Source of the DNA: Xiphophorus maculatus
Taxonomy: Eukaryota; Chordata; Actinopteri; Cyprinodontiformes; Poeciliidae
Length of the DNA stretch: 64,000 nt
Direction: 5' to 3'
Assembly (NCBI RefSeq): GCF_002775205.1
Contig: NC_036454.1
Coordinates: 1,402,382-1,466,381, forward strand
Within the stretch, counting starts at the first letter, position 1, and each line of letters begins with the position of its first letter. This document shows positions 941-63,985 of the stretch, piece after piece. The notes below the pieces were generated by a model. It ran no database searches. It had not been told where the DNA came from and saw only the letters and a program-made list of their open reading frames with translations. Position numbers and translations under genes: made by a program.

Positions 941-10684
<9,744 letters not shown>

Positions 10685-15246: not shown

Positions 15247-18200
15247 TTATTGGCTGTCTTCCGTAGGCTCCTCCCCCCTCATATCTGTGTCAGCCAATCC
15301 CCTGTGAGGGGGGGCGGGCTCTGCAGGCTGAGGGGAGGGGTGTGAGGAGGAGGAAGAGGAGGACAGGGAGGAGGACAGGGAGAGGGGCAGGTTTGGGGGC
15401 TGTTCAGTCTGTTGCCTTTCCTCCCTATCTGCCTCCCCCCCCATCAGCCCCTCCTCCTCCGGCCCCCCCTCTCCTCCCCGGGAGCCGGCGAACTGCAGGT
15501 GAGGAAGGTGGGCCTCCTTCTCCTTCTCCCCTGCCGCCTCCCTCTCACGGCGCTCCGTGTAGACCGGCGCCTCCAGGCTGAGGTAGGAGGCGCTGAGCTG
15601 CCGCAAGTCCAGCTCGAAGGGGCTGCCACCGGGCCGCTCTCCTCCTGCTCCTCCTGCTCCTCCTGCTCCTCCTGCTCCTCCTCTCTTCCCCTTACGGGGA
15701 TGGGATGATGCAGAGGAGGGCAAGCCATCAGGGAGGAGCGACTGGATCTTTGGGAGCCAGCGCTTACGAACTCTGCGGGCGTTTGTGCACATGTCAGCGG
15801 CAATGACGTTCATCTCACTTTCCTTGAAGTTGGGAGCAAAGTTCTGACAGTACACTGAGGAAGAGGAGGAGGGAGAGGATGAAGAGGAGGGAGAGGAGCT
15901 TCAGTGTGTGATGAAGGCAAATCATCAGTTTGTTGCCGACATTCTTACGTTTGACCGTGTTCAACACTCGGTTGTCCAGAGGTTTCCGACTCGGATCGTT
16001 GGTGGACGAGCGAATCCCTGTTCCGCAGCTATTGGCCAGGGTGTTTCTATGGAGACCAAAATAAGCCAATCAGAGGGAGTTTATGTGAGAATAAGATGGC
16101 GTCTAATGGATCTGCAGGAATATTAAAACACAAAGACAAAATTTCTCTGAGAAACAGAAACAACAAAGATGAGACAAAACCCTCATGAACTGGTCCTGGT
16201 CCCGGTTCTAGGTCTGGGTCTGGTTCTGGTCCTGGTCCTGGTTCTAGGTCTGGTCCTGGTTCTGGTCCCGGTTCTGGTTCGGGTCCTGGTCCTTTTTCTG
16301 GTCCTGGTCCTGGTCCTGGTTCTGGTCCTGGTCCTTTTTCTGGTCCTGGTTCTGGTCCCGGTTCTGGTTCTGGTCCTGGTTCTAGGTCTGGTCCTGGTCC
16401 TGGTCCTTTTTCTGGTCCTGGTCCTGGTCCTGGTCCTGGTCCTGGTTCTGGTCCTGGTCCTGGTCCTGGTCCTGGTTCTGGTCCTGGTCCTGGTCCTGGT
16501 CCTGGTCCTTTTTCTGGTCCTGGTCCTGGTTCTGGTCCTGGTCCTTTTCTGGTCCTGGTCCTGGTCCTGGTCCTTTTTCTGGTCCTGGTTCTGGTCCTGG
16601 TCCTTTTTCTGGTCCTGGTTCTAGGTCTGGTCCTGGTCCTGGTCCTTTTTCTGGTCCTGGTCCTGGTCCTGGTTCTGGTTCTGGTCCTGGTCCTGGTCCT
16701 TTTTCTGGTCCTGGTCCTGGTCCTGGTCCTGGTCCTTTTTCTGGTCCTGGTCCTGGTCCTGGTCCTGGTCCTGGTTCTGGTTCTGGTCCTGGTCCTGGTC
16801 CTGGTCCTGGTTCTGGTCCTGGTCCTGGTCCTGGTTCTGGTCCTGGTTCTTACCTGTCGAAGAAAGTGGCCAACAGCCTCCGTAGCAGCACCTTGTGTTT
16901 GACTCCGGCACAAAGGTGGCAGTTCATCAGCTGACCTCTGGTCATGAACACACCTGAACCTGAAGGTACCAGAAGATGTCGACGAGTCACATGACGCGCT
17001 GACTTCCTTATGATGCTGTTACCATGACAACGCACCTGCCACCAGCTCCACCTTCTCTCCAGGATCTCCCTCGGCGTAGAGCGACGGATGGCACCGGTAG
17101 CCGATTTGGCTGATCAGGCTGGCGGGCAGCGCCATGTTGTCCCGGCCAACCAGAACGCAGGGCCGGCGCTCGTTAGCCAATGGGAGGGGCAGCAGCTCCA
17201 GCTTTTCTTGAACTAGACCGTTAAAGTCAGGAGGGGAGAGGAAACACAAGACACCTAAATATTTACCAAGAACCCTAAAGGTCCGGGGCCCCGAGTCTAC
17301 GAGTCTACGGCTCTAAAGGTCCGGGGCCCCGAGTCTACGGCTCTAAAGGTCCGGGGCCCCGAGTCTACGAGTCTACGGCTCTAAAGGTCCGGGGCCCCGA
17401 GTCTACGGCTCTAAAGGTCCGGGGCCCCGAGTCTACGGCTCTAAAGGTCCGGGGCCCCGAGTCTACGGCTCTAAAGGTCCGGGGCCCCGAGTCTACGACT
17501 CTAAAGGTCCGGGGCCCCTGGAGTCTCTTCTAGATGGCCCCGTCACCTGATCAGCTGGTCTTGAAAGACAGCAGAGACACAAAATATCCAAATGTGACCA
17601 GAGAACCAGATGACCCAGCTGGTTCCGGACCCGGTGGCGCCATCTGGTTCCGGACCCAGTGGTGCCAGCTGGTTCCGGACCGGGCCCATGAACTCACTGT
17701 AGGGGTTTCCAGTGTGACCATAGATGTGCTGGTACAGCCCCGGATGAACTGCGTTGCCATAGTAATCCTCCTCCAGCTCCTCCTCGGTCGGCGGTTGGGA
17801 GGGAGGCGAGTCCGCGGGGACGCTGGACCCTCCTGGACTGGAGCGCCCGGCGCCGGCCAGCAGGTAGGACTGCAGCCCCGGAACCAGACCGCCTCCTGCG
17901 CTCAGGTAGCACAGAGCGCCGCTCCTGGAGGACTGCAGCTCCACGTCCGCTCTGACGGAGACACAGCGACATGGTGAGTACTGATGCTAAAGAGCTAACT
18001 GCACTAAAACACCAATCATAAAATGTAGCTCTGCTGGTGCTCAGCATTAAGTGGACGCTAACGCTAGAGAAGCGCACCAACGCTAACGCTAGAGAAGCGC
18101 ACCAACCTAGCATTTAGTGGACGCTAACGCTAAAATGCGCCATCTTCAACCAGGAGTCATTAGCACAGCACGTCAGAACATGGAATCTGGTTTTGATAGG

Positions 18201-36973: not shown

Positions 36974-39900
36974 GACAACTTTATCATTACTTACTATGTA
37001 CACCGGAACTAAGGATACACAGCTTCGAGCCAAAACGGAAGTTGTGTGACGTCATGTGAAAAGGGTCTATTAAAGGCCTGAATGAGTCTCACCTCTGTAG
37101 ATCGTTCCTTTGTCCGCCGCTGAGCTGTGAGCTGCGAAGAACTGCAGAAAAAACACAGCAGGTAGTTACAGGGCGGGGCCAGCAGGGGGCAACAGGTAGT
37201 TCTGGACTCCTACCTTGAATGTTGGGTAGAACTTGATGCTGAACTCTTTGCAGACCTCAAAGTTTTCCTCCTGAGCGCAGTCCAACACGGCCACAGCGAT
37301 GGCCTCATGCCAATCTGACAGACAGAATCAGAACCAATCAGAACCATCAGAGGGAGGGTATTGTATACCGCACCTTAAGACCTGGGAGAGCAACTAACGC
37401 GAGAGCAGCAGCACAATCCGGGATATTTAGGGGAGTAAGGCGGGAAAGGGGGGTAAAAAGGGGGTGGAGCGGCAAGAGATTACGGAAAGAGGCAACTCGG
37501 ACGGAGCGTGGTTCGGTCACGAGAAGCTAAGAAGTGGAAGAGCGGTTTAGAGGCATAATCTGGACTGTGAGTGAACTAAGATGGCTAGTAGTAGTGGAGG
37601 GTGCTCAGAGGATGAAGGAATGGAAACAAGTTGGTCGGTGGTAGAAAATAAGAAAGGTGGAGGAGGAAAAGATAAGGGTAAGAAAGGGATAAATACAGGA
37701 AAAAGATCTCTCGAAGATGAGGAGGAAAATGTCGAGACACGAAAGAAAGTAATGATGGAGGAGTTCAAGGTAATTTTGAAGTTCAGAGCTGGACAGGATT
37801 TGACAGGAGTGAGTCCAATCACTCTATCTATTGGTTTAAAGAAAGTAATTGGAGATGTGGAATTAGCTAAAGTGTTAAGAGATGGAAGCCTGTTGATTAT
37901 CTGTAAAAATGCTGAACAAAAGAATAAAGCGTTAAAATTACAGTCGATTTGTAAAAGAGAAATAACGGAGAGGAAAATAATGGGAGAAGAGAGAGGAATG
38001 AAAGGGGTAATATCAGGAATTCCATTAGGAGAAAATTTAGATGAGTTAAAGAAAATCATTAAAGGAGGAGAAGTGACAAATATCAGACGACTGCAAGCTT
38101 TCAGAAATGGAGAAAGAGTGGATAGCACTTCTGTGCTATTAGAGTTTAAAGGAAAAGAAAAACCAGATAAAATAATGATTGGTTATTTGAGTTTCAGTGT
38201 TAGGAATTATATTCCTCCACCGATGAGATGCTATAAATGTCAGAGATATGGACATATAGCAAAAATATGTAATGGGAAGCAAAGATGTGGTAGGTGTGGA
38301 GGAGAACATTCTTATGGGGAATGTGGAGAGAAGCCGATAAGATGTTGCAACTGTGGAGGAGATCATACTGCAGCATATGCAGGGTGTATGGTGAGAAAAG
38401 AAGCAGTAGAAGTTCAAAAACTAAAAACAGAGAAGAGAATGTCATATGCAGAAGCAGTAAAGGAGGTGAAAAGTGCAGGGGTAAGTCAAAGAGCTAAATT
38501 AGAAAAGAAGACGATAGGTAAAGATCAAAATAATGTCACGCTAGAAAAACTGATCCCGTTCTTAGCCTACATTATAAATTGTTCAGAACAAGCGAGGACT
38601 AAAACTGAAAAAATTAAAATCATAGTGAAAGCAGCAGTAAGATTCTTTAATGTTACAGACTTATCATGGGAAAGGATTCAGGATGAACTCAGACAAGGAG
38701 AGGGATCAGGTGAAAATGAAGCAAATCAAATAGTCATATAATTTTAATATTACAATGGAACGCTAGAAGTCTAATTGCTAATGGTCAAGAGTTTAAAGGT
38801 TTTATTAATAGATTAAAGGAGAAACCAGATGTAATTTGCATTCAAGAAACTTGGTTAAAACAAACATTACAGTTTAGTATTAGTGGGTATTCAACTATAA
38901 GAAGAGACAGAGGAAATGGAAATGGAGGAGGATGTGCTATATGTATAAAAGAAAAGATAAAATTTATTAAGATTCAATTGGACACGGAATTAGAGCTTAA
39001 TGGAGTTAAAGTGTGGACAAAAAATGGAAGTATAGAAATTATAAATTATTATAATCCTTGTAAGAAAATAGATAAAGCAAAGTTAGAAAATATAATTAAA
39101 CACAGGGGAGAGAAGCTAATATGGTGTGGGGATTTTAATGCACACAGCACTTTATGGGGTGAGAAAGATGATTATAACGGGGGAATTTTAGAAGGAATAA
39201 TTGAGGAAAAAGAATTGGTAGTATTAAATAATGGGGAAGGAATTCGGTTGGATGTGATTAGTGGTAAGGAATCTGCTATTGATCTCACTCTAGTATCACA
39301 AGGTCTGGCAGATAGTTGTAAATGGAAAATAAATAAAAATAGTACAATAGGCAGTGATCATTATCCAATACTTATTGAAGTTGAGTTAGATATGGAAAAA
39401 GAACAGGTAAATACTCAAGGAAGATGGAGGTTTAAAGACGCTGATTGGAGGAAATATGAAGATATGAGTGAGAATAGATTGATAAATATAGATATAAATA
39501 AATCAATAAACGAATTAAATTTAGAAGTTAGTAAGAGTATTATTGAAGTAGCAAAAGAAGCAATCCCAAAAGGTAAAGGGATTAAAAAGAAAAGAATAGT
39601 CCCCTGGTGGAATATAGAATGTACAATGGCAATTAAAGCAAGGAATAAGGCTTTTAAAACACTTAAAAAAGATGTTAGTTTCCAAAACTTAATTAGTTAT
39701 AAGAGGAAACAAGCAGAAGTCAGGAGGAAGATTAGAAATGCGAAAAAGTTTTATTGGAGTAAATATTGTGAATCATTAGGAAAAACTACAGCATTAGATA
39801 GAGTATGGAATACAATTAAGAAAATGTCAGGAAAGTCAAAGGAATATAAATTCTCAATACTGAAAAATAATGGAAATATGATTATAGAAGATAAAGATAA

Positions 39901-42900
39901 GGTAGAGTTATTAGTAAAAGTTTTAGCTAAAGTGCATAGTAATGAAAATCTTAGTAAAGAAGAGAAAGAAGGAAGAGAATTAACGATGAGAAAATATAAT
40001 GAAAGAATAAATGAGGAAATGGTTGATAATGATACTATAAATATGAAGTTTTCAATGACAGAGTTAAAAAAAGCATTAAAGAATACAAAAAATTCAACAC
40101 CAGGGGAGGACCAAATAAATTATGTTATGCTTAAAAACTTAAATGAAAGGAGTAAATTAGTTTTACTAAAACTATATAATAAAATATGGGAAGAAGGAAC
40201 TTTGCCAGATAAGTGGAAAGAATCAATTATTATTCCTATATGTAAACCAGGTAAGGATCCTCAGTTAGCTGAAAGTTACAGGCCAATAGCGTTAACATCT
40301 TGTGTCGGAAAAGTAATGGAGAGAATGGTGAATAATAGATTAATTTACTTCTTAGAATCGAGAGAAAAAATAAAAAAATATCAATATGGCTTCAGGAAAG
40401 GAAGAAGTACAACAGATCCTATGGTACAGCTTGAACATGAAATCAGAAAAGCACAGGTGAATAAAGAGGTTTTAATGGCAGTGTTCTTGGATATTGAGAA
40501 GGCATATGACATGTTATGGAAGGAAGGTTTACTGATTAAAATTAGACAAATAGGGCTAAGAGGTAAAATTTATAATTGGATTAAAGATTTTTTAACTGAT
40601 AGAAATATAAGAGTTAAAATAGGAAATGAAGTAAGTTCAAAATGTTTAACTGAAAATGGCACTCCTCAAGGTAGTATTATAAGTCCAATGTTATTTATAA
40701 TAATGATTAATGATATTTTTAGTAAAATCGAAAGTAAGTTTGGAATGACTTTATTTGCGGATGATGGTCTTATTTGGAAACGGGGAAGAAATATAAAATT
40801 TCTAAATGATAAAATGCAAGAAGCGTTAGGTAAAGTAGAAGATTGGGCGCTAGAATGGGGATTTCGAATTTCAAGTTCAAAATCTAAATTTGTTAACTTT
40901 ACTAATAGGAAGGTAGGCACTAAGATAAAATTAAAAATGTATGATAAAGAAGTAGAAAGGGTAGATAAATTCAAATATTTAGGTTTATGGTTTGATAAAA
41001 AGCTTACATGGAAAATACATATTAGTAAAATAATAGAGAGAAGTAAAAAAATATTAAATATCATGAGATGTTTAAGAGGTAAAGAATGGGGAGCAGGTAG
41101 GAAAACTTTGAAGATATTATATATTGGACTTATTAGATCGGTAAAAGATTATGGATGTGTGGTATATAATTCTGCCTCCAGTACCTTATTAAAAGAAATA
41201 GATAAAATACAGTATCAAGTGTTAAGAATTTGCTGTGGAGCAATGAAGACAACACCAGTGTCAGCACTTCAGGTAGAAATGGGGGAAATGCCATTGGAGT
41301 TAAGAAGGAAACAATTAGGAGTAGGGTTCTGGGCAAACGTAAAAGGGCATAAAAAAAGTTATCCTATAAATAATATATTACAACCATGCCAAGAAAGTGT
41401 TAAGAATGTAAATGTAAATAGTTTTGGATGGATAATAAATAAAGAAATAAAGGAAATAGGATTAGATCAATGTTTAATTAGCCCGGTGGTGGATTTTTCA
41501 TGTAATCCACCTTGGATACAAAAAGAGATGAAAGTTGATTTAACATTGTTGGAAGAAGGAAGACAAACAGTAGAAGGAGAGGTGGAAAGATACATAAGAA
41601 GGGAATATGGAGAATACTTACAAATATATACAGATGCATCAAAAATGGTAAATGATAGAGTAGGGATAGCATTTATAATTCCAGATTTAAACATCATGGA
41701 AAATAAAAGATTAACGGATAGTTTGAATGTATACACAGGAGAGTTACTGGCTATTTCAATGGCGTTAAAATGGAGTGAAGAATTAAGTGACAAGAAAGTG
41801 TTAATTTGTTCCGATTCAAGTAGTGCATTAATAAGTATTATGGAACAAGAGTCGGAAGCAAGACAAGACATATTGATAGATATAAATAAATCAATACATA
41901 AAATGGGGATAAATAGATCTACTGTTAAATTTATTTGGATTCCGGCGCATATTGGAATAGTTGGAAATGAATTAGCAGATACATTTGCAAAGAGTGCGAG
42001 TAAGAGAAGTGAAATTGAATTGAAAGTTAAGTATAGTAAAAATGAGATAAAGAGTATAAGTAAAATATATTACAAGAAGAAGTGGCAGGAACAATGGGAG
42101 GGTGAAAAGAAAGCAAGGTTTTATTATAGTATTCAAAAAAAAGTGGGGGAGTGTAGAAAGGAAAATAGGAATAAACAAGAGGAAGATATTATATCTAGGT
42201 TAAGATTTGGACATGTAGGGTTAAATAGTACTTTGAAAATAATAAATAAACATAGTACGGGGTTATGTAATTTTTGTGGAAAGTTGGAAACAGTTATACA
42301 TATTTTTATGGAATGTAATAAATATAATCTAGAAAGAGAGGAATTAGTAGAAGAGTTAAATAGGAATAAAGTTAAATTAAATATTAGAGATCTGCTACAA
42401 AAATCTTCTGGAGATGTGGTTTTTAATTCCGTATTTAGGTTTCTTAGAAAAACAGGTCTAATAGGGAGATTATAGGGTTTAGGCATCTGGTTCATACTCC
42501 AGTCCAGAAGGTGGCGGTAATGCACCTGAAAGTTGTTTGCCAACCGCCATAAAACAAAAAGAAGAAGAAGAAGAAGGGGGGTAAAAAACGGTAGTTTCCC
42601 GGCCAAAACAGGAGACTTGACAGGTATGATCAGAACAAATCAGAACTGGAGCTTTCATTTCCTCTTCATCATTTCACACATCGCATCTCTAGAGGTGTGC
42701 CGATCCATCGGCCACCGATCATAATCAGCCGATTTCTGTGAAAAAGTGTATGATCGGTGATGGCTGATCACTGTCTCTAGTTGCGGATCATCAAAGCCGA
42801 TCACATGTATCTCACTTCACAGCTGGTCTCCTGCCTCCTTCCTGCAGAATTACTCAGATCGATCAGAAACAACCAATCAGAACCATCATTAACCAGCAAG

Positions 42901-45900
42901 CCAATCAGAACCATCATTAGTCAGCTAGCCAATCAGAACCATCATTAACCAGCTAGCCAATCAGAACCATCATCAACCAGCTAGCCAATCAGAACCATCA
43001 TCAGCCAGCTAGCCAATCAGAACCATCATTAGCCAGCTAGCCAATCAGAACCATCATCAACCAGCTAGCCAATCAGAACCATCATTAGCCAGCTAGCCAA
43101 TCAGAACCATCATCAACCAGCTAGCCAATCAGAACCATCATTAGCCAGCTAGCCAATCAGAACCATCATTAGCCAGCTAGCCAATCAGAACCATCATTAG
43201 CCAGCTAGCCAATCAGAACCATCATTAGCCAGCTAGCCATGCTGTCAGGAAGTTTTGATTCAGTAACTTAGCATTGTTTATTTGAATCAACCTGGTTTTG
43301 ACTTTAATGAACGTTTCATTTTTCCTTGACATTATTTGATATCTGTGTTATGAGACTTATTTGACTCATGTATAATTTATGGCTGAGAGCCTTACTGTTA
43401 AATATTATTTTACTGTTTCACTGAATTGTTTCCGTTTTTATTGTTGTAGTACTCAAGACCGCTCTTGTGCAAAATTCTGTTCCCCTGGGAAAATTACTGA
43501 TTAGCAGCTGAAATATTTGTTTCCCCTCTCATAACTTTGGCAAATGAAGAGGAACTGCTTATCAAAGATGCTTATGTGTGATAGCATGTGGTATACTAGA
43601 AATGTTCTTAATCCAGTAATCAGCCATATTTTACATTAGGACAGGATTTATCAGTCTTAATTTTTTGTGTCCTGCCATCAGCAGCTTCCATTCTCTTATA
43701 TCAGCAATAGAAAATCATAAATACACACAATGTGTTGGAAACCCGTGTTTGGTTACTGACTTTTTTATCAGGCTTGAGTGACAAAAGTTGGAAAAAGACC
43801 GATTCTCTTGGCAATTAAGAAAACAACACAAAACGGTGTAAGAAGACGTCATTTATTATTTTACAATTTTGTTGTTGCTTCTTTTTTAAACAGCAGCTGA
43901 ATGTTACAACCTTGACATGATTATACTAATTGTTTTACCGAGAAATCGATCAGATGCGCCGTGGAAATGGTCGGACTGCCTCTCTGGCTGCAGTGCAGTG
44001 AAGTTAGTTTCAAGTTGGCTGTTGGATGTTGGCTGTTGGATGTTGGCTGTTGGATGTTGGGTGTTGGGTGTTGGGTGTTGGCTGTTGGATGTTGGATGTT
44101 GGCTGTTGGGTGTTGGCTGTTGGATGTTGGATGTTGGCTGTTGGGTGTTGGCTGTTGGATGTTGGCTGTTGGATGTTGGATGTTGGATGTTGGGTGTTGG
44201 CTGTTGGATGTTGGCTGTTGGGTGTTGGCTGTTGGATGTTGGATGTTGGCTGTTGGCTGTTGGGTGTTGGCTGTTGGGTGTTGGGTGTTGGCTGTTGGGT
44301 GTTGGCTGTTGGCTGTTGGATGTTGGGTGTTGGCTGTTGGGTGTTGGGTGTTGGGTGTTGGATGTTGGATGTTGGATGTTGGATGTTGGCTGTTGGATGT
44401 TGGCTGTTGGCTGTTGGCTGTTGGATGTTGGATGTTGGCTGTTGGGTGTTGGCTGTTGGATGTTGGATGTTGGCTGTTGGGTGTTGGCTGTTGGCTGTTG
44501 GATGTTGGCTGTTGGATGTTGGCTGTTGGATGTTGGATGTTGGATGTTGGGTGTTGGCTGTTGGCTGTTGGATGTTGGCTGTTGGGTGTTGGCTGTTGGA
44601 TGTTGGATGTTGGCTGTTGGATGTTGGCTGTTGGATGTTGGGTGTTGGGTGTTGGGTGTTGGCTGTTGGCTGTTGGGTGTTGGCTGTTGGATGTTGGCTG
44701 TTGGATGTTGGATGTTGGCTGTTGGATGTTGGCGCTCCGCGGAGCGAGCGGCGTTTAGCTCGAGGCCGACCCGATTTATGAAGGCTAATGTCAGCCAGCC
44801 GTTCTCCACCGCTCGGAGGTTCGCTTAGGGACTGTCAAACACTCCTGACAAATAAATGTTAATAAATGCCTTGGCTTACAACCAATGGACACAAATATTC
44901 AATATTTGAAATAATTTTAATAAAAAATAATATGTTTTCTTCAGTAGCTTCCAAGTCATGTGCCTCATTGATTAAAAATTAGTGTGAAATTGTTCCACTA
45001 GTCTGTACAGACGAGGCACACTCATATTTATTCCATTTTAACTTATTTTTTAACAATGTTTTTTGTCAAAATTTAATATTTTTCTGCAATAACGTTCATA
45101 CCCCATGCCCCCAACTCGAAGACGGAGGGAGGCCACCCTCTCGTTCACGGGGGTCAACCCCATGGTACAGCCACCAGGATGCAGGGCACCAGTTACTGGG
45201 TGGAACTGTGTGGGATCATTGGGAGCCACAGCGGGAGGCCAGTGCAGCCTGGGAGGCCGTTTTGTGCCAAGAATAAGGCCAAAACTTAAATGTGAACGCC
45301 ATGCAGTGCTACTCAGTAACCTAGGATTTACATTCTGATGAGGATTGTCAGATTAATAGTACTTATTGAAAATAAAAACATTTTAGAAGATATTAAACAG
45401 ACTAAGAGATGTAAGGATGTTGAACATCAGTTGTCTTTCACTTGGTGATGAAACAGCTAAAAAAAATTTACTTTATAGTCATATTCTGATTTATATAATG
45501 AGTCTGTATGTTTACTCAGTGCTTGCCTACAGTTGAACACAGTTACGGTTCATGCTGCCCCCACAAGATGCCACCCTGGGCGGTTGCCCATGTCAGAAAC
45601 AGCCAGTACCATCTGTGTCTGCGGTCATTTTCACTGCAACGTTTTGGGGCTGGTTGGATTGTAGAGTGACCATCAATATATTCAATTCAAATTCAAAAAT
45701 ATTTGATTAATATCAAAGGGAAATTAAATAATACATATAATATATAGTAACATATACAGTATAACAATATGTTACTGGATTCCAATGCAGGATGAGCAGG
45801 AATGTCACAAAAAATGACAGATTAGCCTCCATATTGCTGATCCACTCATGTAAAAGTGGCTAAAATTAAAGATGTGTAAAGTCCCGATGTTTGGATGAAT

Positions 45901-57307: not shown

Positions 57308-59902
57308 TTAGTCGTTCGGAGAGAAGAGAAGCACTATCTCTGTGACAGGCCTGAGGAAGAGTGAAGAACCTTCTGCTTTGCAGATCTTGACCTCCACCTT
57401 CCTGACCTTGCCATCCGTGCTTGGGAAAGTCTGTGTCACAAGTCCAAGAGGCCATTCGTTCCTTGCCAACTGAACGGTCTTGAGGAGTACGACACTTCCT
57501 TGTGTAATGTTTGGTTGAGTTACCAGCCACTTTCTGCGTGGCTGCAAGGTTGGGAGAAACTGTTTCCGCCAGCGGTCCCAGAAGGTGTTAGATAAATGTT
57601 GGACCTGGCGCCACTGCCGCTTGTAAAGGTCAGAAGCTCCAAACTCTCCTGCAGGTGCTGAAACAATGTTTATTTTCTGAGTGAGTAAAGCAGCAGGTGT
57701 TAGGATAAATGAATCATCAGGGTCAGTGGTCACAGGAACTAGAGGTCGAGCATTAATGATTGCTGCAACCTCTGCCATGAAAGTTGTCAGAACTTCATGA
57801 GAAAGTTTGTCTTTCATCTGGAGGAACATAGAGTCAAGAATCCGTCTTGCAAGTCCGATCATCCTCTCCCAAGTCCCGCCAAAATGAGAGGCATGTGGAG
57901 GATTGAATGTCCACACACAACCTTGATCTGACAGGTATGTTTGCACTGTGGTATTGTCCATGTTGGAAGGTATGTTCAGCTCTTTACAAGCACCGATGAA
58001 GTTTGTGCCACGATCCGAGTAGATGTGTTTGACTGGTCCACGAACTGCAATGAATCGCCTGAAGGCATTGATAAAGCTAGATGATTCAAGGGATTCAATG
58101 ACTTCAATGTGAATGGCTCTCACACTCATACAAGTGAATATTACAGCCCAGCGCTTACTATGTGAAAGACCACCTCTTGTCCGTCGCGAGCAGATGATCC
58201 AAGGACCAAAAACATCAAGTCCAATATGTGTAAAAGGAGGATCTGTAGACAGGCGAGCTGCTGGGAGGTCAGCCATTTTCTGAACACTAACGGGAGCTCT
58301 AAGTCGTCGACAGACCACACAGTGATGGATAACGCTGCTTGTCTTCCTCTTCCCACCAATAATCCAGAAGCCGGCAGACCGAATGGCACCTTCAGTAAAG
58401 AGACGGCCCTGGTGATGTACCTGCTCGTGGTGGTGTCGAATGATCAATGTCGCAATATGATGCTGTGCTGGAATAATCACTGGGGTTTTCTCACTTTGAC
58501 CAAGGTTGGAATGCTGAAGGCGACCACCAACCTTTAGCAGACCGTCCATGGCAATGAAAGGATCCAAGTTCTTTAGAGGGCTGCTTTGTGGCATTTTTTT
58601 CTGTTCCTGAATACACTTAATCTCCTGGGAATATGTCTCCTCTTGTACTGATTTGATGATGATGGCTGAAGCTTGATTTCTCTCCTCAACACTGACACGT
58701 GACTTGCAGTAATGCCAGCCTCTGCAGGAATTGCTTTGTGCTGCCTTGACATGAAAAAGATGTGCTATGTGCACAAGGCAGGCCACTGCACAGGTGAGTG
58801 ACTTCCAGGAAGAAAATCTAGCAAATCGTTGAGAACCTAGATGATCAGGGGATGTTGTTGTGCTCAAAGTAGATGCCAAAGGTCGCACATCAGGATCTGT
58901 ATCTGGCTCAACCAGATCGCAGCTTCTCTTGGAGACCACTGCCTCAGGCAAGTAGAGAAACTTAGGTCCAGCCAACCAGTTGGTATATACGAGTCGACCA
59001 GCAACAACAAACCGGGTTGCATGATCTGCTGGGTTCTGATCTGTGGGTACAAAGTGCCATTGATTTGGGTTAGATGATCTTCTGATCCGTAGTATACGAT
59101 TACTGACGTATACGTAGAACCGCCTGGTTTCGTTGTGAATATAGCCCAAAACGACCTTACTATCTGTATAGTAAGATACATCACTAAGCTGAAAGTTTAG
59201 TTCTGTAGACACTAGGCCAGCTAGCTCAACAGCCAGCACCGCTGCACAGAGCTCTAATCTGGGGATTGTATGCTCTGGACGTGGGGCTAGTTTGGCTTTT
59301 CCCATGACAAACCCAATCTGATTGTTACCTTCACCATCTGTGACTTTCAAATACGCAACCGAAGCAATAGCTTTAGTTGATGCATCACAGAATACACACA
59401 ACTCTTTCTTGTCAGCGGCTGAAGGTGACATTTTGGTGTACAATCTGGGAATTGGAAGTTGAGACAGTTTGGTCAAAGAAGCTCTCCATGCAATCCAGGC
59501 TTCCTCTCCTTCCTTTGGTAGAGGGGTGTCCCAATCTCCACTACCTGTTGTGAGCTCTCTTAAGATTGCCTTGCCTTGGATAGTGATTGGTGCTGCGAAA
59601 CCAAGAGGGTCGTACAGACTGTTGATTGTAGATAAGACACCACGTCGAGTGTATGGCTTTATCTCCTTTGAGACACTAAAGTGAAAACAGTCTGTCTGGA
59701 GGTTCCAGCAGAGTCCAAGACTACGTTGCATTGGAAGCTGATCGACATCAAGATCTAGCTCTTTCAAATCACTTGCCCGATCAGATGGTGGAAAAGCCTC
59801 CATGACTTCCTTGCTGTTAGCTGCGATCTTGTGCAGTCTCAGGTTTACCTGAGTGAAGTTGGCCCCCCCCACCTTCTTCAAATTAGACAAAATTGGTGTC
59901 AA
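57308..59902 (-). CDS. BEL/Pao retrotransposon pol fragment
   Basis: 864 open residues. The frame covers a late-RT/A17-like segment (GVLSTINSLYDPLGFAAPIT), an RNase H-like region (CVFCDASTKAIASVAYLK, YTDSKVVLGYI, WHFVPTDQNPADHATR), an H2C2 zinc-binding domain (HHEQVHHQGR, CVVCRRLRAP), a DDE integrase (HIGLDVFGPW, IYSDRGTNFIGA, PPHASHFGGTWERMI) and a terminal DUF5641-type domain (WDRWRKQFLPTLQPRRKW). Gag, protease and the RT catalytic core are missing. The N-terminal dozen residues (MTPILSNLKKVGG) derive from the tandem repeat next door, so the ATG is not the native start. It has no internal stops but is 5'-truncated and so not autonomous. Confidence 0.88.
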   Translation of the reverse strand: MTPILSNLKKVGGANFTQVNLRLHKIAANSKEVMEAFPPSDRASDLKELDLDVDQLPMQRSLGLCWNLQTDCFHFSVSKEIKPYTRRGVLSTINSLYDPLGFAAPITIQGKAILRELTTGSGDWDTPLPKEGEEAWIAWRASLTKLSQLPIPRLYTKMSPSAADKKELCVFCDASTKAIASVAYLKVTDGEGNNQIGFVMGKAKLAPRPEHTIPRLELCAAVLAVELAGLVSTELNFQLSDVSYYTDSKVVLGYIHNETRRFYVYVSNRILRIRRSSNPNQWHFVPTDQNPADHATRFVVAGRLVYTNWLAGPKFLYLPEAVVSKRSCDLVEPDTDPDVRPLASTLSTTTSPDHLGSQRFARFSSWKSLTCAVACLVHIAHLFHVKAAQSNSCRGWHYCKSRVSVEERNQASAIIIKSVQEETYSQEIKCIQEQKKMPQSSPLKNLDPFIAMDGLLKVGGRLQHSNLGQSEKTPVIIPAQHHIATLIIRHHHEQVHHQGRLFTEGAIRSAGFWIIGGKRKTSSVIHHCVVCRRLRAPVSVQKMADLPAARLSTDPPFTHIGLDVFGPWIICSRRTRGGLSHSKRWAVIFTCMSVRAIHIEVIESLESSSFINAFRRFIAVRGPVKHIYSDRGTNFIGACKELNIPSNMDNTTVQTYLSDQGCVWTFNPPHASHFGGTWERMIGLARRILDSMFLQMKDKLSHEVLTTFMAEVAAIINARPLVPVTTDPDDSFILTPAALLTQKINIVSAPAGEFGASDLYKRQWRQVQHLSNTFWDRWRKQFLPTLQPRRKWLVTQPNITQGSVVLLKTVQLARNEWPLGLVTQTFPSTDGKVRKVEVKICKAEGSSLFLRPVTEIVLLFSPND

Positions 59903-60560
59903 ACGTTTGTGCTACGTTTGTGCTGGTTTGTGCAGCAAAAATTTTCGTTTGTGCCGCTATCATTTTAAAGATATAAAGAAATGTTTTTAGAGGTCATCAA
60001 AGGTCAACCAGCCCCCCCACCTTCTTCAAATCAGACGAAATGGGTGTCAATCAACTCAGCTACGTTTGTGCTGGTTTGTGCAGCAAAGATTTTCGTTTGT
60101 GCTGCTTCGGTTTTGAAGATATTAAGGAAAGGGTAAAGGTCAAAAGGTCAACCAGCCCCCCCACTTTTATTAAATCAGACAAAATTGGTGTCAAACGTTT
60201 GTGCTACGTTTGTGCTGGTTTGTGCAGCAAAGATTTTCGTTTGTGCAGCTTCGGTTTTGAAGATATTAAGGAAAGGGTAAAGGTCAAAAGGTCAACCAGC
60301 CCCCCCACCTTCTTCAAATCAGACGAAATGGGGGTCAATCAACTCGGCTACGTTTGTGCTGGTTTGTGCAGCAAAGATTTTCGTTTGTGCAGCTATCATT
60401 TTAAAGATATTAAGAAAAAAGTTCTAGGGGTCATCAGAGGTCAACCAGCCCCCCGACCTTCTTCAAATCAGACGAAATGGGGGTCAATGAACTCGGCTAC
60501 GTTTGTGCTGGTTTGTGCAGCAAAGATTTTCATTTGTGCATCTTTGGCTTTGACGATATC
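59864..60560. repeat. 144-bp tandem repeat
   Basis: Nearly five units, each with CCAGCCCCCCCACCTTCTTC, AAATCAGACGAAATGGG, CTACGTTTGTGCTGGTTTGT and GCAGCAAAGATTTTCGTTTG. The period of 144 bp keeps frame, so an ORF of 175 codons (60040-60567) repeats YVCAGLCSKDFRLC three times or so. It adjoins and partly overlaps the BEL fragment start. Confidence 0.92.
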
Positions 60561-61186
60561 AATTTAAACCTTTTGATGTCAAGCGTGCTGGTTTTGCTTT
60601 GAACATATGACTGAAAACTTAAAGCAGAGAAGCTTCAGTTATTCCATTATGACCAACTCATGATCACAGTTGTTAACAAATGACTTTTATTTATCTGGAT
60701 TAACTGACTTTACAATTCATAGCACAGAACTTTCAACAACATTTTACAATAACAGCTTAATCTGTTTAAATAACACTACATTCAACCTTTATATTTTTTG
60801 TGTCATCATGCATTCAAAGTTGCCCTTCTGGTGCATGAAATGTTATTTTTGGTGTAATCCATGTTGAAAGACCTTTATCAACCAACATAACTCATCAAGT
60901 CATCTTAGTATTATGTTCAGAGCAACATATGTCTAATTTATTAAATGTGAAAAATAGCTAAACATAAACTTGAGTTGAACCATTTTTAAAATAAACTCTG
61001 CACCCACTTGGACAAAAGTGCTAATATGCCGTTTACCAAAATACAAAACTACCAGAACAATTAAGGGAAGTGTCTTTTGAACAAAAAATACATCAAACTT
61101 TCTTAGGTTCTCAAATGTAATACATTAACTCAAATAACAGCTGACTCACAAAACAAAAAACTACATTCTTTCAAGAAAGCTGACCA
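60561..61186 (-). other. 3' flank of the DDE-USP ORF
   Basis: AT-rich, no coding frame. It is likely the 3' untranslated part of the element to the right. No inverted terminus was recognised. Confidence 0.4.
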
Positions 61187-63985
61187 TTATTCTTTTATGT
61201 AGAGCACAGCGTGAGGGCATATGCTGGTCTTTTCAGATGGTGTCGTTGCTTCTTTTCTGAGGTCATCGTACATTTCCCAGGTGCCCGGGGACCTCTTACA
61301 AAATGCCACATAATGCCCAATTGTTTCAGGCGTTGGACCCTCCTGAAATGCTATGATGGCTTTCAGTGTGAATCTCTGTTCTTGAAGTTGAAGAGTTGCT
61401 GGAAATTCACTGAGGGAAAACTGCTTGGTACTGGGGACACTTTGCTCCACAGTTGTGGCACAGAATTGTCCAAGGTCTGTGTCAATCCAGACAAGTTCTT
61501 GCACTCTGTGACTGTGACAAACAGTCCCCATACAGAGACGTTTTCCTGACATGTCAGTTTTACATGCTGCTGGGCATGCATCAGGACTTTGGATTGGTCT
61601 TAGGCATGGAGATTCTGCAAGGTGGAGCCCTTGTTCAACAGCAGACTGAAGGTGAGCTATGCCAGAAGATGACAGGACTGACAAGTCAATGGAAATGAAA
61701 GGTACTTTCCTTGTATTTGGAATGGAAAGTTTACAGTACTGGGAGGAGCACTGTCTTGTGAAGTGAATACTTGGATTTTCCGTCATTGTATTTTGGATAA
61801 CTGTGGACACATGGCACTGTGCATCAACATGATGAACACCAGACTTCAACTGAACAGGGCTGAATATTGAGCTCAGAATCTCAGCTCTCAAAGAATAGGT
61901 ATGTGGAGTGACACCTTTTGAAGTAATATCTTTCACAAGCTGGAACACTTTATTTTTCTCTGTACTTTTTAGCACATTCTGAGCGGAAACACCGTCACAG
62001 AAAGCGCAACATAGACCTTGACAGACTGCATCAAAGGCACAGGTGTTGGTGACACAGTATCGTTCCTTGCCGACTCTGATTGGTTGTTGATTATTTCCAT
62101 TTTTTAAAAGCCCCAGCTTAACTTTTTTCTGTTTTACAGCTGGATCAGAATGGAGCCATTCGGGACAAGGGGAGAGGTATGATGTCAACTTCCTCTTCTT
62201 TGGTGGGACTGCAAGGCCTCTCCAGTTTTCCAATGCAGCTGTTTCTTCTTTGTTGGGTTCCTGAGAGCAGTTTTCATCCATTCCTTGTTCCACAGAACTT
62301 TTGATTGGATTCTGAAGCTTCACTGTCTCTTCTTGTCTGGCAGCCTCTGCTTCTTTTTTTATTTTTTTGGCAGAACAGATCCTCATGTTGCCCTCAATGA
62401 AGCCAAGATGACGTGAAATGAATTTATCAACCCTAATGGGAAGATTTTCATGCTTGAACAAGCCATGTTTAATGTTCTTAAACTCAGCTTCAACATTAGC
62501 TGAAGTTGCAGTGAGTTTTTCACTGTGAAATAGGGGAACCATTATTCCAGTCCAGAGAGGTAGGTATCCTCCCAGTCTTATTAGGTGTGGCACGAGCTCA
62601 GGTAGGTAGTGCATATTATCTCGGTCGCCATTGACTTCACTGTGGCACTTACTCTCCTCACAAATATCTGTCACCCACCTCCTCAACTCAGTATGTATTT
62701 GTGTGCATTGATCCAATCTAAATTCTTCTGCTTCCTCTTCCCTGGGAATGGACATAGTGTCATCTGCGATTTTGCTTTTAAGGTTTGATTTGCACACTTC
62801 TGACATGATGGGGTTACCATGAATATCATTACCTTCTGTCTCACTTAATGCCACAGTGGCAATGCTGCGTATTAGGACCTTTGCTTCCTCCAAAGATTGC
62901 GACTTGACCAGCTGTGCCATTGAACGCACATAGAAGTCTTTCACCCGATGAGGTTTTTTCCTCAAACAATCCCACTGGGAAATCATTTTGATCAGGTGTG
63001 CCACATCCACTCGGATGAAGCATGGGGGCAATTTGCTACATTTGTTCTGAAGCAGAACACCAAAGCACTCATTTACATAGCTCTTCAAATCAGAGAGATG
63101 TGTGAAAGCCTTAACTAAAGCACCAAGTAAAGCTAAAGAAAAATCTGAAATTGCCTCTTTTGGAACTGCTGCTCCAGCACGAATCCATTCTGACAACCAT
63201 CTTGTGATTGCCTGGACATCATGTCTCTCTGACATCATTTGAACCACAGGGATGTGGGAGTTGTCGCTTCCTGTTAAAACTCCTTGATACAGGAAGATAT
63301 GTCCAGACAAGCCGTTCGGCCTGACAAGCTTTTTTACAACTGAGCCAGTTGCATCGAAAGCAACAATAGGGTGTTTCTCTGTCTGGTACATCATCATTTG
63401 GGTAGGACTCCAGTAATGACAGAAGAATTTGTCTAATCCAATGTCACCAATACTTCCACTGTGAGGACAACTACATTTGATTGCCTGTAGTGACAAGATT
63501 GGGTTTTTATGAGCCATTTCAGATTCATGTTGTTCTTGTTTGGCTTTACGTATAGTTGCTAAATTTGGTAGATGACTTGGCTCAGGGTCTCCAAAATCCA
63601 TTAGTTTTTCTGCCTGTGATGCTCTCCACACATGTGGCTGCAGTCTACCTTCACAAAGTTCTTTTTTAACTTCTGCACGCAGTCTTCCAGACAATGGTCT
63701 CTTTGAAAACCCCGTGTGCAGGGATTCATCCGTGTTTGCCATCACACACCGAAGCACCATTGGGCACTGCGTGTCTGGTTCCTTTTCACATGTAATGTAC
63801 AGTTGACCTTTGCACTCTTTACAGAAACCTCTTATTTTTATGAAAGATGACACCTGGTTGGGGTACACCTTGGCTCTTTTAAATGTAAAAGTGCAAGAAC
63901 TTTTAATTTCATTCCAGATTCCCTGGTTCACAACATGAGTCCATGTGCCTCTCTTCAAAATGGTGTATGTCCGTTTTTTAAACAT
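61187..63985 (-). CDS. Transposase-like DDE protein fused to a USP-like protease
   Basis: 932 residues without a stop; the frame is open to the window edge beyond the first ATG, so the true start may lie outside. Residues 50-80 have a cysteine cluster (CKEC, C66, C74, C80). A DDE-like core follows: D211 in IVAFDATGSVVKK, D281 in AISDFSLALLGALVKAF, PPCFIRVDVAHLIK at about 320, and candidate glutamate E499/E501 in TSANVEAEFKNIKHG. After a lysine-rich linker (PPKKRKL at 594, nuclear-signal-like), residues 640-932 form a peptidase resembling ubiquitin-specific proteases: Cys box NTCAFDAVCQGL (C649), His box ETIGHYVAFCKR (H891) and WEMYDD. I do not recognise a named gene. MULE or KDZ-type DNA transposons, which carry Ulp1 or OTU domains, are the nearest idea. 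It is probably a mobile element, or one recently domesticated. Confidence 0.7.
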   Translation of the reverse strand: MFKKRTYTILKRGTWTHVVNQGIWNEIKSSCTFTFKRAKVYPNQVSSFIKIRGFCKECKGQLYITCEKEPDTQCPMVLRCVMANTDESLHTGFSKRPLSGRLRAEVKKELCEGRLQPHVWRASQAEKLMDFGDPEPSHLPNLATIRKAKQEQHESEMAHKNPILSLQAIKCSCPHSGSIGDIGLDKFFCHYWSPTQMMMYQTEKHPIVAFDATGSVVKKLVRPNGLSGHIFLYQGVLTGSDNSHIPVVQMMSERHDVQAITRWLSEWIRAGAAVPKEAISDFSLALLGALVKAFTHLSDLKSYVNECFGVLLQNKCSKLPPCFIRVDVAHLIKMISQWDCLRKKPHRVKDFYVRSMAQLVKSQSLEEAKVLIRSIATVALSETEGNDIHGNPIMSEVCKSNLKSKIADDTMSIPREEEAEEFRLDQCTQIHTELRRWVTDICEESKCHSEVNGDRDNMHYLPELVPHLIRLGGYLPLWTGIMVPLFHSEKLTATSANVEAEFKNIKHGLFKHENLPIRVDKFISRHLGFIEGNMRICSAKKIKKEAEAARQEETVKLQNPIKSSVEQGMDENCSQEPNKEETAALENWRGLAVPPKKRKLTSYLSPCPEWLHSDPAVKQKKVKLGLLKNGNNQQPIRVGKERYCVTNTCAFDAVCQGLCCAFCDGVSAQNVLKSTEKNKVFQLVKDITSKGVTPHTYSLRAEILSSIFSPVQLKSGVHHVDAQCHVSTVIQNTMTENPSIHFTRQCSSQYCKLSIPNTRKVPFISIDLSVLSSSGIAHLQSAVEQGLHLAESPCLRPIQSPDACPAACKTDMSGKRLCMGTVCHSHRVQELVWIDTDLGQFCATTVEQSVPSTKQFSLSEFPATLQLQEQRFTLKAIIAFQEGPTPETIGHYVAFCKRSPGTWEMYDDLRKEATTPSEKTSICPHAVLYIKE

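Follow-up and report, generated by a model that had tools for sequence, protein, structure and literature searches.

Mutator-like elements (MULEs) are described as having target site duplications of 8-11 bp, long inverted repeats built of tandem subunits, derivatives of foldback form and a transposase with the residue order D-D-CxxH-W-E (sections of PMC6446971 and PMC5225508). In Muta1, residues D214, D283, H307, W401 and E419 were found to be important by mutation (results excerpted from PMC5225508). The 2019 survey regards the evidence for MULEs in chordates as limited, judges the reported vertebrate MULEs to be misidentified and poses their absence as a question (PMC6446971), and the superfamily list for ray-finned fish in PMC7599744 lacks Mutator, a word that occurs there once, in a general section. 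The same survey text describes Rehavkus elements with 9-bp duplications, inverted repeats of up to 400 bp, a minisatellite and a PHD finger. Transposases joined to peptidases are also on record: Ginger1 combines an integrase-type core with an Ulp1 or OTU peptidase and a Trichomonas vaginalis protein combines transposase_11 with Peptidase C19 (excerpts of PMC2836005), while rolling-circle Helitrons of vertebrates, zebrafish included, carry VTD deubiquitinases with an Asp-x-His motif, and Helitron peptidases are thought to spare transposition proteins from degradation (excerpts of PMC9741609). The SUMO isopeptidase USPL1 has the catalytic residues H456 and D472 (part of PMC8983731). Here we describe a transposon in a 64,000-nucleotide stretch of Xiphophorus maculatus DNA, the window, which is C12:1402382-1466381 of a 704-Mb assembly, and whose gene joins a DDE-type transposase core to a USP-like peptidase. 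In this assembly the RAG1 profile finds a match of 1,286.7 bits, as expected of a jawed vertebrate, together with a second piece of 157.9 bits immediately upstream; a RAG1 gene divided by an intron is a trait of ray-finned fish.

We consider it probable that this locus is a cut-and-paste DNA transposon, autonomous, active until recently and Mutator-like in its build, with a USP-type cysteine peptidase predicted to strip protein modifiers. The family has defined ends, 9-bp duplications, intact and decayed copies, foldback derivatives and constraint on both halves of its protein. The features concerned are the following (window coordinates).

57308 to 59846, minus strand: BEL/Pao retrotransposon pol fragment, the interrupted target, outside the element (Peptidase_A17 8e-45, DUF5641 6.4e-25)
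59838 to 59846, no strand assigned: left copy of the 9-bp target site duplication CTCAGGTTT (9/9 bases agree; the right copy lies outside the window)
59847 to 60562, no strand assigned: gene-distal (3') terminal inverted repeat, starting ACCTGAGTGAAGTTGG, about 4.8 tandem copies of a 144-bp unit
60563 to 61186, minus strand: non-coding stretch on the 3' side of the gene, bounded by the stop codon and the repeat array, in a 98%-identical block common to locus L032
61187 to 64000, minus strand: in-window part of the coding frame for 1,057 residues, whose start lies at about window position 64360, beyond the edge
61190 to 62065, minus strand: USP-like peptidase, full-protein residues 766-1057, with C774, H1016 and D1032/D1033 and the candidate metal ligands C871, C876, C943 and H949
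62381 to 63370, minus strand: DDE-type core, full-protein residues 331-660, with D336, D406, D452xxH455, W603 and E626 (or E624)
63746 to 63844, minus strand: N-terminal cysteine cluster (C180, C183, C191 and C205 of the full protein), a candidate zinc-binding, DNA-binding part

Element ends and target site duplications

Comparison of the window locus (L031) with a second locus (L032) revealed the exact ends of a complete DNA transposon around the gene. The first element (L031:2229-8618) is 6,390 bp long and corresponds to window positions 59847 to 66236, past the edge, while the second (L032:2211-8738) measures 6,528 bp. Each end of both elements begins ACCTGAGTGAAGTTGGCCCCCCC, and the long terminal inverted repeats extend over 428 bp (97% identity) and 548 bp (98%), with tandem units of about 144 bp. 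The 428-bp figure is that of the window copy, whose 3' repeat pairs with the opposite end at L031:8192-8618, and the tandem array at 59864-60559 is the 3' end of the element. The window copy is inserted in the BEL/Pao pol frame and is flanked by the exact 9-bp duplication CTCAGGTTT; its joined flanks presumably restore the usual BEL reading. Approximately 250-400 bp upstream of the gene start of L031, in the 5' non-coding part of the element and beyond the window, there is a stretch ending GGATGGATGGATGGA that we take to be similar to the tail of a fish short or long interspersed element (SINE or LINE). An earlier reading of the window, made from the sequence only, had proposed a transposon, and the genome-wide comparison of copies supplied the exact ends, inverted repeats and 9-bp duplications that establish it.

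When the genome was searched with 432 bases of the inverted repeat, at least 84 end matches were obtained (40 scored of 813 first-look candidates). Many of them lay as two arms back to back and form foldback elements, nearly identical to one another and about 590 or 736 bp in length. Foldback examples lie at C12:8007068-8007803 and C2:6149526-6150115. For the duplication analysis 20 derivatives, a subset of the listed pairs, were picked (10 of 726-736 bp, nine of 589-590 bp and one of 1,424 bp) and 50 bases were fetched on each side. The 9 bp outside the ends agreed exactly in 12 of these and at 8 or more of the nine positions in 17, the other three agreeing at 5, 6 and 7. When the left flank of each derivative was compared with the right flanks of the other copies, agreement of 8 or more occurred in 0 of 380 pairings, and the mean was 2.3 as against 8.3 for the true pairs. 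Alternative duplication lengths of 7, 8, 10 and 11 gave an agreement of at most 7/11. The 17 derivatives with a duplication of at least 8/9 revealed no clear target preference.

The window protein had at least 54 matches in the genome (49 scored of 67 candidates). All 932 residues were covered without a stop in two of them, the window copy on C12 and a copy on C15, while the rest were partial or broken. There are 6 differences in 1,057 residues between the two intact proteins and 10 between their coding sequences, four of these synonymous, with a synonymous divergence (dS) of 0.006. The transposon thus appears to have moved recently: the near-identical second intact copy, the 9-bp duplications and the many derivatives agree with the recent activity that the sequence-only reading had suggested.

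Coding frame and transposase core

The minus-strand frame 61187-63985 comprises 932 codons when counted from the ATG chosen previously and 937 codons to the window edge, where it is still open, while frames in 500 mononucleotide-shuffled versions of the same stretch reached at most 204 codons. The uninterrupted frame therefore stands, and the proposed start does not, since the ATG at 63985 is internal and encodes residue 126 of the full protein. Past the window edge the stop-to-stop frame extends to 1,069 codons with the first methionine (MPKKSL) 12 codons in, giving a protein of 1,057 residues. Because a pyrimidine-rich stretch with CAG at its end immediately precedes this methionine, an upstream exon, perhaps non-coding, is likely. 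All residues named in the sequence-only reading (D211, D281, E499/E501, NTCAFDAV, IGHYVAF and YDD) are present and become D336, D406, E624/E626, C774, H1016 and D1032/D1033 in the full-protein numbering. The four cysteines of the N-terminal cluster, C180, C183, C191 and C205, are identical in the two subfamilies of the element, A (the window copy) and B.

Conservation was counted over the other fetched copies that span a site, the window copy excluded; these copies are related, some nearly identical, and are not independent. In the core the first aspartate was conserved in 8/10 copies, the second in 9/10, [D/C]xxH in 10/10, E626 in 6/6 and E624 in 5/6. The order D-D-[D/C]xxH-W-E is that of Mutator and hAT transposases, with CxxH replaced by DxxH in both subfamilies. 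The MULE profile PF10551 had no match to the protein at an expectation value (E) of up to 10 and no match in the genome (0, with 5 candidates scored), while it matched in 3 of 14 control genomes. The core appears to be built like that of a Mutator-like element, and we have left it unassigned to the MULEs. The subfamily-B core matched only GET4 (0.05) in Pfam; this and the matches to Macin, But2 and FAA_hydrolase were regarded as chance and set aside.

The ratio of nonsynonymous to synonymous divergence (dN/dS) of the core was 0.07, 0.07, 0.12 and 0.08 against the subfamily-B copies L033, L036, L038 and L041, at dS of 2.0 to 3.5, and that of the peptidase 0.24, 0.27, 0.26 and 0.24 against the same copies, at dS of 1.5 to 1.7; dS between the subfamilies is near saturation and these values are imprecise. 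The ratios were obtained by codon counts with stop-containing codons dropped, and decay after insertion raises them.

USP-like peptidase

The C-terminal domain contains ordered Cys, His and Asp boxes, in the order of C19 and C98 peptidases, and among the other spanning copies the Cys was conserved in 7/7, the His in 10/11 and the Asp in 11/11. In Pfam the whole protein matched C98 best. The isolated domain matched UCH at 3.4e-4 (20.7 bits, curated cut-off 23.9) and C98 at 4.8e-4 (20.3 bits, cut-off 27), and a tighter piece gave 2.3e-4 (21.3 bits) and 4.6e-4 (20.4 bits), all below the cut-offs. A USP-type peptidase, as the sequence-only reading had it, agrees with these matches. Pfam holds Ulp1 and OTU models, and neither family gave a match at E up to 10.

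A profile search of solved structures returned one match, to USP4 at E 0.56, located at the His box. With the peptidase as sole query there were 12 weak hits at E 0.1 to 1.1; they included yeast Ubp8, TssM and USP14, located at the His box, and RagB, surely a chance match, ranked equally high. For the whole window protein the hits were BIR and RagB (E 0.5 to 1), neither of them a peptidase.

Searching the genome with the peptidase part yielded 22 matches and no evident close relative among host genes. Since all matches up to E 0.002 fell in known copies, except for a 32-residue, 72%-identical piece on C19 that was taken as a further remnant (the next best match had E 0.09), a recent capture of the domain from a host gene is unlikely; an older capture would be compatible with these results.

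Subfamilies and a distant relative

Subfamily B includes L033, L036, L038, L041, L042, L043 and L045, among others. The L033 protein is 58% identical to the window protein and is encoded by a full-size element of 6.27 kb with the ends AGCTGAGTGAAGCTGACACCCC and repeat units of about 145 bp, while L048, a deleted derivative, has the exact duplication CTCCGCTTG. Both catalytic sets, that of the core and that of the peptidase, are preserved across these 58%-identical subfamilies.

L044, L048, L049 and L050 are shortened subfamily-B copies in which an inverted duplicate of the end-proximal region flanks a piece of the coding frame, which suggests a common derived form. Near a broken subfamily-B copy, at L039:5542-6373, lies an 832-bp element whose ends are of the subfamily-A type and are not flanked by a target duplication.

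A distant relative, 26% identical and with inverted repeats of its own, was identified at L047:309-4822 (C1:31987308-31991821). It keeps DATGSVV, TDYS and, at the CxxH position, CSAH; its frame of 607 residues stops soon afterwards, before the E. Neither a peptidase in this locus nor a duplication near its ends was found. Beyond this genome no relatives were found in viral contigs (179 pattern-matching stretches), prokaryote genomes (5 stretches) or phages, and the collections hold few eukaryotes, so that absence from them says little.

Weighing of the interpretation and its rivals

Several observations count against the proposed transposon with a Mutator-like core and an active peptidase. With E allowed up to 10, no Pfam model matched the N-terminal 585 residues of the window protein, nor pieces of them, nor L047. 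Structure prediction, which the sequence-only reading had put forward as a check, was carried out and gave two single-sequence models of very low confidence (predicted local distance difference test scores of 31.6 and 38.9), uninformative on folds and unused for fold searches. The flanks of L032 agree at only 7/9 positions and those of L033 at 6/9, while the chosen ends of L038, L039, L044, L049 and L050 showed no duplication (0 to 2 of 9). The Pfam matches of the peptidase are below threshold, a C98/UCH match was obtained for 1 of 6 aligned members, the window protein only, and the subfamily-B domain alone matched neither model and gave an implausible FAA_hydrolase match (6e-4). Besides the saturation of dS, the peptidase dN/dS against the closer copies L032, L034 and L035 was 0.87, 0.97 and 0.76, values that look neutral on their own, the first two being based on few changes.

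The element could be a transposon whose C-terminal domain is a USP-derived binding or structural module that cleaves no modifier; the weak, sub-threshold UCH and C98 matches, the failure of subfamily B to match either USP model and the second finger-region cysteine pair of subfamily A (C943, C948), which is not preserved in B and is replaced by C and H, would fit such a module. A domain of this kind is unlikely in our view, as the catalytic residues are kept (Cys 7/7, His 10/11, Asp 11/11) and the boxes persist across subfamilies that are 58% identical. Within the peptidase reading, the enzyme may act on SUMO, as an isopeptidase of the USPL1 (C98) type, and not as a deubiquitinase. C98 tops the Pfam matches of the whole protein, and the strand box LQLQEQRF is followed directly by LKAIIAF; the blocking loop, placed by reading of the sequence, is thus seemingly missing, as reported for USPL1 (section of PMC8983731). 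On the other side, UCH slightly outscores C98 on the isolated domain. The USPL1 type is a real possibility towards which we do not lean.

The classification of the core is a separate matter. We regard as rather doubtful an assignment of the transposase to a different known superfamily (Rehavkus, hAT, P, Kolobok or Kyakuja-Dileera-Zisupton, KDZ), with a Mutator look due to convergence or to deep shared ancestry. The MULE profile is without a match, Rehavkus likewise has 9-bp duplications and a minisatellite, and hAT transposases have CxxH and W too. On the other hand, the PHD finger of Rehavkus was not seen here, and the target duplications of hAT (8 bp), P (8 bp) and Kolobok (TTAA) misfit the 9 bp observed. 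The KDZ group, which the sequence-only reading had drawn on, does not fit either: Zisupton and Dileera duplications are 8 bp, those found here are 9 bp, and the Pfam search, in which a KDZ model is represented, gave no KDZ match. As to a host gene domesticated from a transposon, also raised in that reading, two intact frames and a low dN/dS between subfamilies would be expected of it; the complete ends, the exact target duplication inside a mobile element, the near-identical second copy and the many broken copies make it highly improbable.

For the favoured transposon with an active peptidase, the motifs suggest that the N-terminal cysteine cluster would bind the repeated ends, the D-D-E core would cut and join DNA and the C-terminal domain would act as a USP-type cysteine peptidase. 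The peptidase may free the transposase, or proteins gathered in the transposition complex, of ubiquitin, SUMO or a related modifier, and such removal might protect the complex from being degraded or from silencing or repair control that depends on the modifier. It may likewise act on host factors, as the sequence-only reading had proposed. The proposed role follows those put forward for the Ulp1/OTU domains of Ginger1 and for the Helitron peptidases.

Transposases joined to ubiquitin-type peptidases, including the Peptidase C19 one from T. vaginalis, were already known. The literature searched, which comprised paper listings and the papers cited here, described neither a USP-like domain carried by an animal transposon of the DDE type nor a vertebrate Mutator-like element with recent activity; Repbase, Dfam and general protein databases lay outside this search and may already list the family. 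With somewhat less than even confidence we propose that the element represents a lineage of the Mutator group, too divergent for MULE profiles, which recently jumped in a vertebrate and is durably fused to a USP- or USPL1-type isopeptidase. If true, this would settle whether vertebrates lack Mutator-like elements and would add the USP class to the modifier-stripping enzymes of animal transposons. Transposons are known to carry peptidases of the Ulp1, OTU and tegument types. A constrained USP-like domain in a transposon of a vertebrate would add a separate case to these and would indicate that removal of ubiquitin-like tags is a recurring need of transposition.

Other features of the window

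A LINE-like retrotransposon with two long frames is present at 37575-42475 (plus strand); one frame has a weak zinc-knuckle match and the other encodes endonuclease, reverse transcriptase and RNase H. An exon of a bromodomain gene lies at 3659-4432 on the minus strand (Pfam 5.5e-6). The arrays at 44014-44733 (7-bp unit, about 103 copies) and 16190-16847 (6-bp unit, about 110 copies) are open in several frames, and such frames are not genes.

Comparison with known systems

Ginger1 and the T. vaginalis protein resemble this element in the fusion of a transposase to a ubiquitin- or SUMO-type cysteine peptidase, while the transposase classes differ (integrase-type in Ginger1, transposase_11 in T. 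vaginalis and a DDE-type core here). VTD Helitrons likewise carry a deubiquitinase, here a predicted one, on a mobile element. H1016 precedes D1032 by 16 residues, and because the His comes before the Asp, the Asp-x-His class of the Helitrons is excluded. The domain resembles USPL1 (C98) in the Cys-His-Asp order, the His-Asp spacing of 16 and a weak Pfam similarity, and differs in the Cys-His distance (242 here, 220 in USPL1) and in scoring below the C98 family cut-off.

The 9-bp duplication and the minisatellite of Rehavkus are both present here. Its listed hosts are arthropods and annelids, whereas the present host is a vertebrate, and no Pfam PHD match was obtained for this protein, in which a divergent finger is possible.

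Unlike MULEs, this element has no Pfam MULE match, has DxxH in place of CxxH, bears a C-terminal peptidase and resides in a vertebrate. Its 9-bp duplications and long inverted repeats are within the MULE definition of 8-11 bp target duplications with long inverted repeats, and it resembles MULEs, especially Phantom/Muta1 of Aedes aegypti, in duplication length, long inverted repeats of tandem units, foldbacks and residue order. Relative to Muta1, the D-H (49 versus 24) and H-W (148 versus 94) spacings differ, while the D-D (70 versus 69) and W-E (21 or 23 versus 18) spacings are similar.

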